From positions 62,001-126,000 of IMG/VR virus record IMGVR_UViG_3300042691_023183: 64,000 nt of DNA. The stretch is one strand, 5' to 3'. Each line of letters starts with the position of its first letter. The first letter of the stretch is position 1. Below are positions 55,966 through 64,000 of this stretch, in pieces. The notes beneath the pieces were generated by a model. It saw only the letters and a program-made list of their open reading frames with translations. It was not told the DNA's origin and searched no databases. This stretch comes from a virus. The position numbers were made by a program, and so were the translations under genes.

Positions 55966-56162
55966 CTGATTTTTGGAAGTTTGTAATCGGGAATTTGTCC
56001 TGAAAACCAAAAGAAATCTTCCTCGAAACTATAAAAGAAGGTTTGTCCGGTTACGGGATTGTACGCTTCCATAACCTCACGGTTATTTAATTCACGACGT
56101 TTCCCACGAAATTCCATATGGGGATACTTTTCTCTGATGTTTTCAGGAACATGAATGTTCAT
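55962..56162 (-). CDS. Small protein of unknown function
   Basis: 66 residues starting MNIHVPENIREKYPHMEFRG, with an aromatic-rich YSFEEDFFWFSGQ near the end. It overlaps the macro-domain gene by 4 nt. Not recognised. Confidence 0.5.
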   Translation of the reverse strand: MNIHVPENIREKYPHMEFRGKRRELNNREVMEAYNPVTGQTFFYSFEEDFFWFSGQIPDYKLPKIS

Positions 56163-56617
56163 GGTTCGTACCGACAGATATAAAGGACAATATCACTGTT
56201 ATCAAAGACATCTTCAATAATGGCATTAACAATATGCCAAGATCCTCCACCCAACATACATCCCATATTATGAGGCAGACTCAGACTGTTCAACTGATGA
56301 CTTTCCGCATGTTTTTTGATTGAAGATAGTCCGTTATAGACTGCCTCATAATTGGTATGACGTTGTTCACGACCATAACGAAATTGACTGTAACAGTTGT
56401 AAATGTAGAATTTACCATCATTTGTCTTTACCCAACTGAATGTACCTAACTTGGAGTAATCACCCGCCTTAGTTTTACAGTCTTCTTCATACACCTCTGG
56501 ATATCTGGCACGAATTTCTTTGGCAATTCCGCTGCCCATGGTGTTTTGACAATTGGCTTGATGGATGATGCCTTCAGCACCACCATCAAAAATGTTACAG
56601 TCTTTTCGAACAATCAT
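56159..56617 (-). CDS. Macro-domain protein (ADP-ribose binding)
   Basis: 152 residues from ATG 56617. GIIHQANCQNTMGSGIAKEI is the macro-domain ADP-ribose-binding loop, and SLPHNMGCMLGGGSWHIV the second. Macro domains bind or hydrolyse ADP-ribose derivatives, including RNA or protein ADP-ribosylation. The NAD-salvage pair and RNA-repair genes in this window make a role in countering ADP-ribose-based host defence plausible but unproven. Confidence 0.85.
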   Translation of the reverse strand: MIVRKDCNIFDGGAEGIIHQANCQNTMGSGIAKEIRARYPEVYEEDCKTKAGDYSKLGTFSWVKTNDGKFYIYNCYSQFRYGREQRHTNYEAVYNGLSSIKKHAESHQLNSLSLPHNMGCMLGGGSWHIVNAIIEDVFDNSDIVLYICRYEP

Positions 56618-56618
56618 T

Positions 56619-57854
56619 TTATTGTAGTTTTGATCGAGCACAGTTTAAATTACTTTCAATTCTGTGACGTTGATTTGTTGGCAATATGTTTTTATAAAGA
56701 TCCGATAACAATAGTTTTGCAGCATCAAACGATTCTTGATAGTATCCCATATGGTATGTAGATATTATGAAATAGTCTAATGTTGACCATCCAGTGTCAG
56801 TATATGAATCCTTTTCAATCCACACGACTCTTTTATTTGGAAATGGATAGTTATTGCGAACAGCTATATTTGAATATAGATATAAGTTTGGAATATCATC
56901 AACATGGTTTAAATAGTAGTCACATAAACGCATTAATGATTCGTTACGAATTGGATCGAAATTAAATGCTTTTTGCCAATATTGGACAGCAGTTTCCATA
57001 TTTCCAATACGTTCGTTCATACAACCAATTAGGTACAGTCCATAATAAATAAATTCGTCTTTCGTCTGTGTTTTAAACAAGTTAATATTTGGATATTTGG
57101 GGTGATGTTTTTTGATGTATTGTTCAAAATAAAATGTGGCACGTCGAACAATTTCTTTAGCGTGATCTAACTTAAAAGGAAATATCTCGGGATTGACAGC
57201 ATCATTATACGATTTACCGACATAAAATAAATGATACATATCAGAACATTCTTGTTGTGTAACGGTTTGATTTTCCAATTCAAGAGCATCAATAAAAAAC
57301 TTAAACTTATTTTCCCACGTGATTCCACCGGGAAGAAGAACGTGACGAAATCCAATTGGTAAATTTCCCATTGAATATGCACCATTGTCCTTTATATGAA
57401 TCGTTTCATGTCGTTTATCTTCAGCAAAATACCATGGCAATCCAGCCTTCCATAACCACATACGGTAATAATCGAAGTTGCCACTACGAGCAACTACATT
57501 CCATGCATCGTGTGACTTGATGATATCCCAATCAAAGTCATCATCAACTTCAAGAATTTCATCCGCGTCCATTCGTAGAATATAATCACATCCATGATTA
57601 GCTTGAAGACAATATTGAAGTGTATGGTTTCGATTATAACCGGGGTATTGCCATGGTTCATAATACAAAACACCGGGAATATTTTTACTTTCAAAAAAAC
57701 TCTTAATTATGTCCTGTGTTCCATCGGTTGATCCGTTGTCTTGGATTACCCAATAGTCAATGTGTTTATAGGCCGATTCAAGCATGCGTTCAATAACCGC
57801 CGCTTCATTTTTAACCATTGCATTCAATACAATTTTTACTGATTTGTTGCTCAT
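56619..57854 (-). CDS. GT2 glycosyltransferase with TPR-like C-terminus
   Basis: 411 residues. VLNAMVKNEAAVIERMLES, VIQDNGSTDGTQDII and ILRMDADEILEV (DxD) define a GT2 domain. From about 270 the NERIGNMETAVQYWQKAF helices look like tetratricopeptide repeats. This arrangement is common in bacterial and phage GT2 proteins. Confidence 0.88.
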   Translation of the reverse strand: MSNKSVKIVLNAMVKNEAAVIERMLESAYKHIDYWVIQDNGSTDGTQDIIKSFFESKNIPGVLYYEPWQYPGYNRNHTLQYCLQANHGCDYILRMDADEILEVDDDFDWDIIKSHDAWNVVARSGNFDYYRMWLWKAGLPWYFAEDKRHETIHIKDNGAYSMGNLPIGFRHVLLPGGITWENKFKFFIDALELENQTVTQQECSDMYHLFYVGKSYNDAVNPEIFPFKLDHAKEIVRRATFYFEQYIKKHHPKYPNINLFKTQTKDEFIYYGLYLIGCMNERIGNMETAVQYWQKAFNFDPIRNESLMRLCDYYLNHVDDIPNLYLYSNIAVRNNYPFPNKRVVWIEKDSYTDTGWSTLDYFIISTYHMGYYQESFDAAKLLLSDLYKNILPTNQRHRIESNLNCARSKLQ

Positions 57855-60804: not shown

Positions 60805-61446
60805 TTATAGTTCTTTAACGTGATGGTCTGCCTTACGAATGTTCTTGTTGTTCATGATACGAACAATATCATCAAACAACAAAGGAGTTGCATGACCATC
60901 CCAACCACAATCGAGAGTAAGGCCATCAGTACAATCAACTCGGGTTGATGGATAACTATAATGGCTATGTCCACACAACATGTAAGATCCCTCCTTCATG
61001 TTCTCCCATACAGCAATAGGAAAGTGGTTCATAACAACATACTTGCCCTTAATCAAACACTCATAGTGATAACCAAGAATACTCACGTTACGATACCTAT
61101 AAGGATATACCTCAATATCATCTCGTTGGTACTCTGTAGCAACCATCTGTCGATACATCTTGTAAATAGGATTTGGATGGTTACCCCAAATCAATTTGAT
61201 GTTTTGACACGTAATTTGACTTAGATATGCGTCAAACTGTTCTTCACTGGTATTAAGACAAAAGTCTCCCAACGAGAACAACACATCATCAGGGCCAACA
61301 AGTTCATTGATCTTGGCAATAACCCCACGATCATGTTCTTCAACACTGGAATACCCACGTTTACTCCAAATAAACGCTTTCTTATGTCCAAGATGTAGAT
61401 CACTAACAACCCAACACTTGACATCATTGTACTTTTCGATTCTCAT
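60805..61446 (-). CDS. Metallophosphoesterase (second copy in window)
   Basis: 213 residues. WVVSDLHLGH, VLFSLGDFCLNTSEEQ, LIWGNHPNP, VMNHFPIAVW and LCGHSHYSYPS give the two-metal set. It is distinct from the 39984-40724 enzyme: GNHP replaces GNHD, and the length is shorter. Substrate unknown. Confidence 0.85.
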   Translation of the reverse strand: MRIEKYNDVKCWVVSDLHLGHKKAFIWSKRGYSSVEEHDRGVIAKINELVGPDDVLFSLGDFCLNTSEEQFDAYLSQITCQNIKLIWGNHPNPIYKMYRQMVATEYQRDDIEVYPYRYRNVSILGYHYECLIKGKYVVMNHFPIAVWENMKEGSYMLCGHSHYSYPSTRVDCTDGLTLDCGWDGHATPLLFDDIVRIMNNKNIRKADHHVKEL

Positions 61447-61455
61447 GACAATAGT

Positions 61456-61971
61456 TTACTCCCGGTTCACAATAAACTCAATCAATTTCTCAACAAATTC
61501 ATCATAATCGGAATAATACTCCACAAAATGACGTTTGGGACTATTTTTAACGGTATCGACATAGGTATTGAGAATCATTTCAGTTTGATACTCCACATCA
61601 AATTTACGACGATACTCGGGTTCACAATAAATGAATATCTGTTGTCTATTTTCTTTAGTCAAATTACGTTCCAACGCCGCACCAAGCTCAAACAACGTAA
61701 TTGGTGCCAGAGTTTCATGACTAAAATAGAAAATAATGATATCAGCCTGATGTAGTTGATGATATTCCCAACTGATTTGTTCCGCACTTTCGTTTGGATC
61801 ACTCATGTTGAAATTTTCACGTCTAGGATTATAAACAGTACCATTACAAAACTTAATCCGATCAAATAGATTCTTTTGCCAATCTTTTGCACCTGTAATA
61901 CTACCAGCAAAAAACACTGACGGATACGGATTGTGAAAATTTTCGTAATTAGGTGCTTCAATGTATTTCAT
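61456..61971 (-). CDS. Nucleoside 2-deoxyribosyltransferase-like protein
   Basis: 171 residues from ATG 61971. SVFFAGSITGAKDWQKNLFD, YNPRRENFN, QISWEYHQLHQADIIIFYF and PITLFELGAALE match the Nuc_deoxyrib_tr_2 family, with the catalytic Glu in FELGA. It could cleave or exchange nucleobases, fitting nucleotide or NAD metabolism beside PRPP synthetase-like and NAMPT genes. It overlaps the upstream gene by 4 nt. Confidence 0.78.
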   Translation of the reverse strand: MKYIEAPNYENFHNPYPSVFFAGSITGAKDWQKNLFDRIKFCNGTVYNPRRENFNMSDPNESAEQISWEYHQLHQADIIIFYFSHETLAPITLFELGAALERNLTKENRQQIFIYCEPEYRRKFDVEYQTEMILNTYVDTVKNSPKRHFVEYYSDYDEFVEKLIEFIVNRE

Positions 61972-62429
61972 GACCAATTATCCTCCATAATTCTTTTCTC
62001 TTTGGTACCAATCGTCTTAGGATCAACTAAGGCATAATAAATCTCTTTCCAATCAGTTGTACCATCAAATCCAGCCTTATCATCAAGTAGGAAATTGAAG
62101 TAAAACTTATCATCAAAATTGCAAATCTCCGTGTTTTTACACCGATGATTACAGTTAATATCGTTAAACTGTAGATCAAATCGACTCGTAATATCCGCAA
62201 TTGCAGTATAGTGACTACTTGTCCATAGAATAGTTATATGTTCAGGGTGATTAAACAAATAATCAAGAGTTTCCTTTGCATACGGATATATTACAGCACC
62301 CTCGTTAAACTTATTATAAGTTCCCGTGATTATGGTATCGTGTAGGTCAATACACCAATACAGTTCTTTCCAATTACGTTCACGCTTTTGTTTGTAAACG
62401 TTCTGAATAATCTGAGTCCAAGTTTTCAT
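61968..62429 (-). CDS. HAD-like phosphatase
   Basis: 153 residues. YWCIDLHDTIITGTY is HAD motif I (DxHDT), ITILWTSSHY motif II, and FLLDDKAGFD the acidic motif IV. The phosphatase is likely small-molecule directed. It overlaps both neighbours by 4 nt in the NAD/nucleotide operon. It is unrelated to the remnant at 8091, apart from the superfamily. Confidence 0.75.
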   Translation of the reverse strand: MKTWTQIIQNVYKQKRERNWKELYWCIDLHDTIITGTYNKFNEGAVIYPYAKETLDYLFNHPEHITILWTSSHYTAIADITSRFDLQFNDINCNHRCKNTEICNFDDKFYFNFLLDDKAGFDGTTDWKEIYYALVDPKTIGTKEKRIMEDNWS

Positions 62430-63370
62430 ATGAAGAGTTCGCTCACACTTTCATTGTTATGAATACTATTGATAGCTTTAGCAAACAAATTGCTTACATC
62501 CAAAGACACAAATCGATCACCCCACTGATTTTCATGTAAAATATTAGCGGTGTTACTACACAGAAATTCATCAACAGTACCAGTATTAAAGGAACCGTCA
62601 AGTCGAGTAATGCCAGTCTTTGTAATACATCCATGTGTAACCGCACAAATAACCTTGTCAGCACCATTTTTCTTACACGCTTCCGCAGCCTGAATCAAAG
62701 TACCACAACTTTCAGTCAAATCATCAATAATAATCACGTTTTTACCGTTAACGTCACCAATGATGTTTTGAAGTTCAACCTTTACATCACTGATACGTTT
62801 CTTACTGATAAATCCAAAGTCAACACCCAAGGTTGTAGCGTACTTTTCAATACGTTTGACTGCACCAACGTCCGGTGCCATCAAAACCAAGTTACTCTTG
62901 TCAAATTTGGTACTAATATAGTTACCAAGAACAGGTTCAAACGTCAAGTGGTCAAACGGAAGGTTAGTGAATCCGCCCACCTGAGGTGAATGAAGATCCA
63001 TAGTGACCACACGATCAATACCACTCGCTTCAAATAGATCCAGAACCAATTTGGCAGTAATAGGAACTCTACTCTTATCCTTACGATCCTGACGTGCATA
63101 TCCAAAGTAAGGTACAACAGCAGTGATACGTTCGGCACTAGCACGACGTGCAGCGTCTGCCATGACCAACAACTCCATTAGATTTTCGTTGGCAGGATTG
63201 GTGATACCTTGAATAAGAAACACATCATTTCCACGGATATTGTCCTTGAATTGACAATAAGTTTCACCGCTTGGAAAACGGTGGTGGTAAATGTTACCAA
63301 GTTTCGTATGTAGATTATCTGCAATCCTCTTTGCCAAATTAAGATTGCTAGTTCCGCTAAAAATTTTCAT
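62426..63370 (-). CDS. PRPP-synthetase-like pyrophosphokinase (Prs or Adps)
   Basis: 314 residues from ATG 63370. FPSGETYCQFKDNIRG, PYFGYARQDRKDKSRVPIT, MDLHSPQVGGFTNLPFDHL and the pyrophosphate-binding VIIIDDLTESCGTLIQA are PRPP-synthetase landmarks. The PRPP-loop residues (LTESCGT instead of the usual MIDTAGT type) deviate. It directly precedes the HAD gene and follows the NAMPT gene, as in phage NAD-restoration pairs, so the phosphoribosyl acceptor may be ribose-5-P or ADP-ribose. Confidence 0.85.
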   Translation of the reverse strand: MKIFSGTSNLNLAKRIADNLHTKLGNIYHHRFPSGETYCQFKDNIRGNDVFLIQGITNPANENLMELLVMADAARRASAERITAVVPYFGYARQDRKDKSRVPITAKLVLDLFEASGIDRVVTMDLHSPQVGGFTNLPFDHLTFEPVLGNYISTKFDKSNLVLMAPDVGAVKRIEKYATTLGVDFGFISKKRISDVKVELQNIIGDVNGKNVIIIDDLTESCGTLIQAAEACKKNGADKVICAVTHGCITKTGITRLDGSFNTGTVDEFLCSNTANILHENQWGDRFVSLDVSNLFAKAINSIHNNESVSELFI

Positions 63371-63397
63371 AGATGTCATGGAGTAAAACGGTTTTAA

Positions 63398-63426
63398 AGG
63401 ATAACCGTAAACCTTCGTTTAGTCAA
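63398..63426 (-). promoter_or_regulatory. Sigma70-like promoter for Prs-like operon
   Basis: On the minus strand: TTGACT, 17 nt, TATCCT, then 27 nt to the ATG at 63370, starting right after the NAMPT stop. Confidence 0.45.
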
Positions 63427-64000
63427 TCACAAAGAAGCGTTCTTACGAACAGTAGCAAAGTCAACTTCCTTGACCAATTCGCCGTTATAAAAAACAACAT
63501 TCAGGTAATCCTCACCGGGATCGTTTTCATTAACGGTAACAAACTTACCATCGATCTTAGTCAACTTGAGACGACCCTTCTTGGAAGCCTTAGAAACGTC
63601 CTTGGGATTCTTCTGAATGTCATGCCACTGACCATCACGATACTGAGCACTACACTTGAAAGCACAACGCTGAGTATCACGATTGACCTTCTGCAACAAT
63701 CCACCACCCATACCAAAACAAGCAATGTTCTCAGTTGCAAATCCAGCCTTGGTAATGGCATACAGAATCTTCTTGATTCCTTCAATGTCAATACCATCAC
63801 CCCAAAGAACACGAACCTTTGGATTGATAACACAATAACCCCTGCTGTTAATAGTGCCACCGAAGTTATCCCAAAGATTGTACATGATCCAAACCATTTC
63901 CTCTTCGGGGGTAGGATGTTGAGGAGTAATACTGTCAGGACGAACCACAAACACACCGTCACGGGCAAGAATACGATCCTTGAACTTGTTTCCAATAATC
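63427..64000 (-). CDS. nadV: Nicotinamide phosphoribosyltransferase (NAMPT/NadV), C-terminal part
   Basis: About 191 codons are visible; the N-terminal part is beyond the window. VVRPDSITPQ, VRVLWGDGIDIEGIKK, FGMGGGLLQKVNRDTQ and FKCSAQYRDG align with the catalytic half of NAMPT. GKFVTVNEND and FATVRKNASL match its C-terminus. It makes NMN from nicotinamide and PRPP, or the NARP1-type ADP-ribosyl equivalent. Reading continues open to base 64000. Confidence 0.9.
   Translation of the reverse strand, partial: IIGNKFKDRILARDGVFVVRPDSITPQHPTPEEEMVWIMYNLWDNFGGTINSRGYCVINPKVRVLWGDGIDIEGIKKILYAITKAGFATENIACFGMGGGLLQKVNRDTQRCAFKCSAQYRDGQWHDIQKNPKDVSKASKKGRLKLTKIDGKFVTVNENDPGEDYLNVVFYNGELVKEVDFATVRKNASL

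Follow-up and report, generated by a model that had tools for sequence, protein, structure and literature searches.

A phage NAD+ salvage cluster, very probably of the PRPP-dependent NARP2 type, with a linked canonical ribose-phosphate diphosphokinase gene

We found that a 64,000-nucleotide stretch of DNA from a virus of bacteria (the window; positions 62001-126000 of a 126,838-base virus record) very probably carries a NARP2-type cluster for phage NAD+ salvage, i.e., the PRPP-dependent NadM-NadV route, to which a gene for a canonical ribose-phosphate diphosphokinase (Prs) is linked. NARP2 was reportedly described by Osterman in 2024 as the combination of a nicotinamide phosphoribosyltransferase (NAMPT, NadV) and an NMN adenylyltransferase. 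Membership of the protein families, intact catalytic residues and conserved linkage of the genes in relatives were observed directly. Judged from the protein families, Prs would convert ribose-5-phosphate and ATP to PRPP, NAMPT would join PRPP and nicotinamide to give NMN, and NadM, a bifunctional NMN adenylyltransferase/Nudix protein, would produce NAD+ from NMN and ATP. We infer that these activities are exerted with PRPP, and not ADP-ribose pyrophosphate (ADPR-PP), as the donor, and that the pathway would restore NAD+ after its depletion by the host's defence. The NadM-NadV route has been reviewed (PMC9503650); the name NARP2 comes from later work on anti-defence systems.

The earlier note on this DNA had reported an adjoining pair of Prs-like and NAMPT genes, which proved to be real. 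Both genes lie on the minus strand in the order NAMPT, a gap of 47 nt, and then Prs downstream. The 3′ part of the NAMPT gene (63427..64000), assigned by Pfam, NCBIfam, alignment and tree, is cut by the window edge; the complete gene encodes 465 aa and runs to record position 126824 (this would be window position 64824), with its start codon only 14 nt from the record end. The Prs gene (62426..63379), assigned by domain models, loop and tree, encodes a canonical, full-length protein of 317 aa, the predicted PRPP maker. A HAD-type phosphatase-like gene (61968..62429), which is kept near Prs in relatives, shares its first 4 nt with the end of the Prs gene. This gene is in turn overlapped by a nucleoside deoxyribosyltransferase-like gene (61456..61977; PF15891), both on the minus strand, and a phosphoesterase gene (60805-61446) comes next. 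In structure comparison, the predicted model of the nucleoside deoxyribosyltransferase-like protein resembled 4MCJ and the NDT/DNPH1/MilB fold. Sugar phosphates are released by nucleotide N-glycosidases that have this fold and, by analogy, one may speculate that the protein feeds Prs.

Two readings of the gene pair had been put forward, classic salvage and NARP1. In the latter, the Prs-like protein would be an Adps making ADPR-PP and the NAMPT-like protein a Namat joining it to nicotinamide, so that NAD+ would be obtained in two steps. To determine the type of the NAMPT encoded here (the query), we compared it with both groups of enzymes. The protein matched the domain models PF18127 (E 5.1e-39) and PF04095 (E 5.6e-42) and scored 544 bits against NCBIfam NF006629 (cut-off 405); the family scores of both NAMPT and Prs were far above chance. 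It scored 367–415 bits against human and Xanthomonas NAMPT (3DGR, 7YQO). All the catalytic residues checked were kept (D16, Y18, F193, R196, D219, H247, R311, D313, D354, and R392 in human numbering), and every catalytic or NMN-contacting residue listed was the same as in the human enzyme. Bit scores were 405–415 against vertebrate NAMPTs vs. 243 against the Namat structure 9W5W, with which phage K Namat scored 666 bits.

The structures of the SPbetaL1 Namat (9W5W, 9W5X) revealed an adenine clamp consisting of a helix with the motif GSX..X...TRD, the aromatic residues F392 and Y396, and a variable loop (PMC12774641). The query NAMPT was aligned with 14 related proteins encoded on viral contigs, with human NAMPT, with eight further phage NAMPTs, of which four have an adenylyltransferase-type gene beside them, and with nine Namat-type proteins, namely 9W5W and the eight whose genes adjoin one for an Adps-like protein. 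All nine Namat-type proteins read GS[FY]xYQxxTRD. The query reads GGGLLQKVNRD at this site, with Gly at the F392 and Lys at the Y396 position, as in human NAMPT, and thus lacks the SCH motif with its two aromatics. Neither clamp aromatic was present in the query or in 22 of the 23 other NAMPTs, the exception being L010, which has the first only. The GDPxxIxxG stretch that follows RPDS in the Namat-type proteins was also absent from the query; human and Xanthomonas NAMPT have GNP after RPDS, while the query's phage clade has ITPQHPTPEEE instead. In the tree, the nine Namat-type proteins formed one clade (support 100/100) with the query outside, and forcing the query into it was rejected by the AU test (p 8e-21). 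As the F392G/Y396K mutant, altered in the clamp residues, retained partial activity (PMC12774641), loss of the clamp alone need not abolish the use of ADPR-PP. Taken by its sequence, the query NAMPT is of the PRPP-using (NadV) type. Among the relatives, the L010 NAMPT (L010:2283-3650) reads GSYLVRKLNRD, with the Namat-like Ser and Tyr first and Lys at the second aromatic position, and is a possible intermediate between the clamp types. The NAMPT of L019 (L019:1935-3329) is only 45% identical to the query, between neighbours that are 70–81% identical, which suggests that another NAMPT lineage has taken the place of the original gene at this locus.

Results for Prs pointed to the same type of pathway. 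The protein matched PF13793 (E 6.8e-52) and TIGR01251 (341 bits; cut-off 113), and its top matches in the PDB were canonical Prs enzymes (254–265 bits). It has the same length, N- and C-terminal domains and catalytic motifs as bacterial Prs from B. subtilis (1DKR), E. coli (7XMU), and Thermus (7PN0), with scores of 243–265 bits, and keeps YARQDRK, DLHSPQ, KKR (the KxR flexible loop), and the DD...GT loop. It differs from them in belonging to a phage clade of its own and in the PRPP loop (residues 219–227; 62699..62725 on the minus strand, computed from residue numbers), where DDLTESCGT replaces DDxxDTAGT. The earlier note had quoted LTESCGT correctly; its proposal that the loop departs from the usual sequence to fit ADP-ribose did not hold, as the loop is much closer to those of cellular Prs (DDIIDTAGT, DDMIDTGGT) than to those of Adps-like proteins (DDICDGGRTF, DDICDGGGTF, DDLTSYGGTF, and similar). 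Adps-like proteins, represented for ICP1 by a 304-aa ORF, stood on one side of a branch of length 2.9 (support 100/100) and the query Prs on the other with cellular Prs; neither the separate clade nor the DGG-type loop of Adps was found in the query. Joining the query Prs alone with Adps was not rejected in the AU test (p 0.09), but here the test only asks at which point of the tree the very long Adps branch joins, and this may be anywhere. The arrangement, too, had been likened to that of NARP1. Yet, the Adps-like gene lies upstream of Namat in all eight Adps-Namat phage loci inspected (in ICP1 by ORF), the reverse of the order found here. Thus, when aligned with Adps/Namat and NadV/Prs, the two proteins grouped as a NadV-type NAMPT and a canonical Prs.

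The third gene of the route was searched for with PF01467, NUDIX and the NadM of a sister contig. No NMN adenylyltransferase was detected in the window, as the earlier note had stated, or on the whole 126,838-base record. With only 14 nt of the record left ahead of the NAMPT start codon, this absence cannot be read as biology. The search beyond 64 kb, fruitless on the remainder of the record, succeeded in sister contigs. In L009, whose NAMPT and Prs are 92% and 91% identical to those of the query at the protein level and which aligns to the last bases of the record (86.6% identity over 5,077 bp), a 319-aa NadM-Nudix ORF (L009:4883-5842) precedes NAMPT, with 77 nt between them; the end of the record coincides with the site of this gene. 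NCBIfam NadM models match both ends of the ORF and Pfam detects the Nudix domain, while the adenylyltransferase half gave a weak match (18 bits) to the Pfam nucleotidyltransferase domain. The protein contains the motifs GRFQxxxLHxxH and SGTEVR and the Nudix core REVQEEAG. Its AlphaFold model had a mean pLDDT of 71, with an uncertain domain arrangement. The six best PDB hits of the model in Foldseek were from 2QJT, 2R5W, and 2QJO, entitled bifunctional NMN adenylyltransferase/ADP-ribose pyrophosphatases, and covered both domains (E 2e-12 to 4e-15). As the VIA-align list was filled by Nudix domains, the assignment of the N-terminal half rests on these full-length hits, the HxxH/SxTxxR motifs and NCBIfam.

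Ten relatives extend far enough upstream of NAMPT to show a NadM gene, and nine of them have one; its 3′ end was found at the contig edge in three more (12 of 13 informative relatives in total). The exception is L023 (IMGVR_UViG_3300037042_006844, 303 kb), with a NAMPT 87% identical to the query, a linked Prs and no NadM homologue on the whole contig. In L010, L011, and L021, the adenylyltransferase domain of NadM has lost both the SxTxxR motif and, in HxxH, the second His, and a second protein of 371–373 aa is encoded between NadM and NAMPT; proteins of this kind were located at L031:8771-9886, L034:8777-9892, and L010:1082-2203. The C-terminal domain resembles NMN adenylyltransferases (PF01467, 36 bits; ISSTAIR), and the N-terminal half has a weak, below-cut-off CinA/PncC match. 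It looks as if the adenylyltransferase step may have shifted to another protein in these phages, and motif loss together with a second adenylyltransferase-like protein is the pattern expected if NMN is the intermediate. Going by the sister contigs, NadM is probably present in this phage and missing from the record only because the contig ends.

In the light of these data, we weighed the possible readings of the cluster. NARP1 draws on the adjoining genes and on a record without an adenylyltransferase. Against it stand the missing clamp motif, a NAMPT outside the Namat clade, a Prs with a Prs-type loop on the Prs side of the tree, the reversed gene order and the adenylyltransferase upstream of NAMPT in sister contigs, a neighbour that the earlier note had itself given as refuting NARP1. 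We consider it very improbable and rejected it on these grounds as well as on the bit scores; of the two options raised before, classic salvage was retained. Another reading, that the phage makes only NMN and the host's NMN adenylyltransferase finishes NAD+, would fit the lack of NadM on this record and on the 303-kb L023 contig. We regard it as improbable, given the point at which the record breaks and the 12 of 13 informative relatives that encode NadM.

A larger, though still minor, chance has to be given to the reading that the role of Prs lies in the general nucleotide synthesis of the phage and that its position near NAMPT reflects only loose clustering, the NAD module proper being NAMPT and NadM. 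In relatives, the distance between Prs and NAMPT ranges from 0.05 to about 5 kb, with other genes in between in several of them, and the window also encodes a thymidylate synthase and, identified by eye, a dihydrofolate reductase. On the other hand, every relative in which both genes could be located near each other kept them linked within about 5 kb, even at a Prs identity as low as 69%; a shared PRPP pool is still compatible with this. Within the NARP2-type reading, which we prefer, one may tentatively propose, as a somewhat unlikely variant, that NadM-Nudix, NAMPT, and Prs form a closed loop of canonical enzymes that rebuilds NAD+ from both products of defence NADases. The putative reaction of the Nudix domain would split ADP-ribose into AMP and ribose-5-phosphate, Prs would convert the latter to PRPP, NAMPT would add nicotinamide and the adenylyltransferase domain would finish NAD+. 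If the Nudix domain does cleave ADP-ribose, Prs would draw its ribose-5-phosphate from the NADase product on which NARP1 also relies, and the outcome of NARP1 would be reached by a different, convergent route.

Compared with known systems, the cluster resembles NARP2 of the KVP40 type (NadV + NadM/NatV) in that its NAMPT falls among PRPP-type NAMPTs outside the Namat clade, and in that the gene immediately preceding NAMPT in sister contigs is a NadM-type adenylyltransferase-Nudix gene, an arrangement also seen in phages B23, MD18, and SCTP-2. In these three, an annotated adenylyltransferase precedes a NAMPT gene that has no Prs beside it, and the N-terminal domain of Prs was found nowhere in the genomes of B23, MD18, SCTP-2, ValKK3, and others; the canonical Prs linked here is the difference. 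With NARP1 (Adps + Namat; SPbetaL1, Bas63, DyoEdafos) the cluster shares Prs-like and NAMPT-like genes side by side in a phage; it differs in the lack of the selectivity clamp, the Prs-type loop, the separate clades of both proteins, the gene order and the adenylyltransferase next door in relatives. LR756502, a 642-kb metagenomic phage, encodes NadM, NAMPT, and Prs, with Prs 417 kb from NAMPT. A true Prs linked to NAMPT was not seen among the matches listed out of 1,015 hits in a collection of sequenced phages, and a literature search of limited reach gave no paper on a trio of NAMPT, adenylyltransferase, and Prs in phages. The linked NadM-NAMPT-Prs trio is best called the known NadM-NadV route plus Prs, so far in uncultured phages.

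Several other genes of the window and its relatives concern NAD+, coenzymes or RNA. A Macro-domain protein (56159-56641, minus strand; PF01661, 35.6 bits), a possible ADP-ribose binder or hydrolase by its family, is encoded about 6 kb from the NAD genes, and a similar ORF occurs in the sister contig L028 (L028:15857-16315). Two RNA ligases (PF09414, PF09511; 47681-49960 and 52419-53525, minus strand) accompany kinase-like genes (AAA_33, APS kinase-like), possibly as an RNA repair set. Inspection by eye of one relative suggested that a NADAR-like protein is encoded downstream of its NAMPT gene (L049:2967-3494); NADAR domains beside NadM/NadV have been reported (PMC9503650). The contig of L022 and L032 encodes a NAD synthetase (G015:147746-148390, minus strand; PF02540, E 1.8e-50) a few kb from NAMPT and NadM. 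Related phages also encode a CoaD-CoaE fusion for coenzyme A synthesis (pantetheine-phosphate adenylyltransferase and dephospho-CoA kinase; L031:4221-5390, domain-tested; L034:5175-6305 and L071:990-2123, by similarity). L044 (G019), L024, and L027 encode relatives of Prs (57%) alongside a PncB-like protein, a Nudix protein and what looks by eye like a NAD synthetase, which suggests another PRPP-using NAD route.

Our results indicate that adjacency alone does not justify calling a phage Prs-NAMPT gene pair NARP1; what decides is whether the clamp motif is present, which type of loop the Prs has and which genes lie past the end of the contig. A Prs of its own alongside the NadM-NadV route could free this group of uncultured phages from the PRPP supply of the host; should ADP-ribose be a substrate of the Nudix domain, both NADase products could be recycled.
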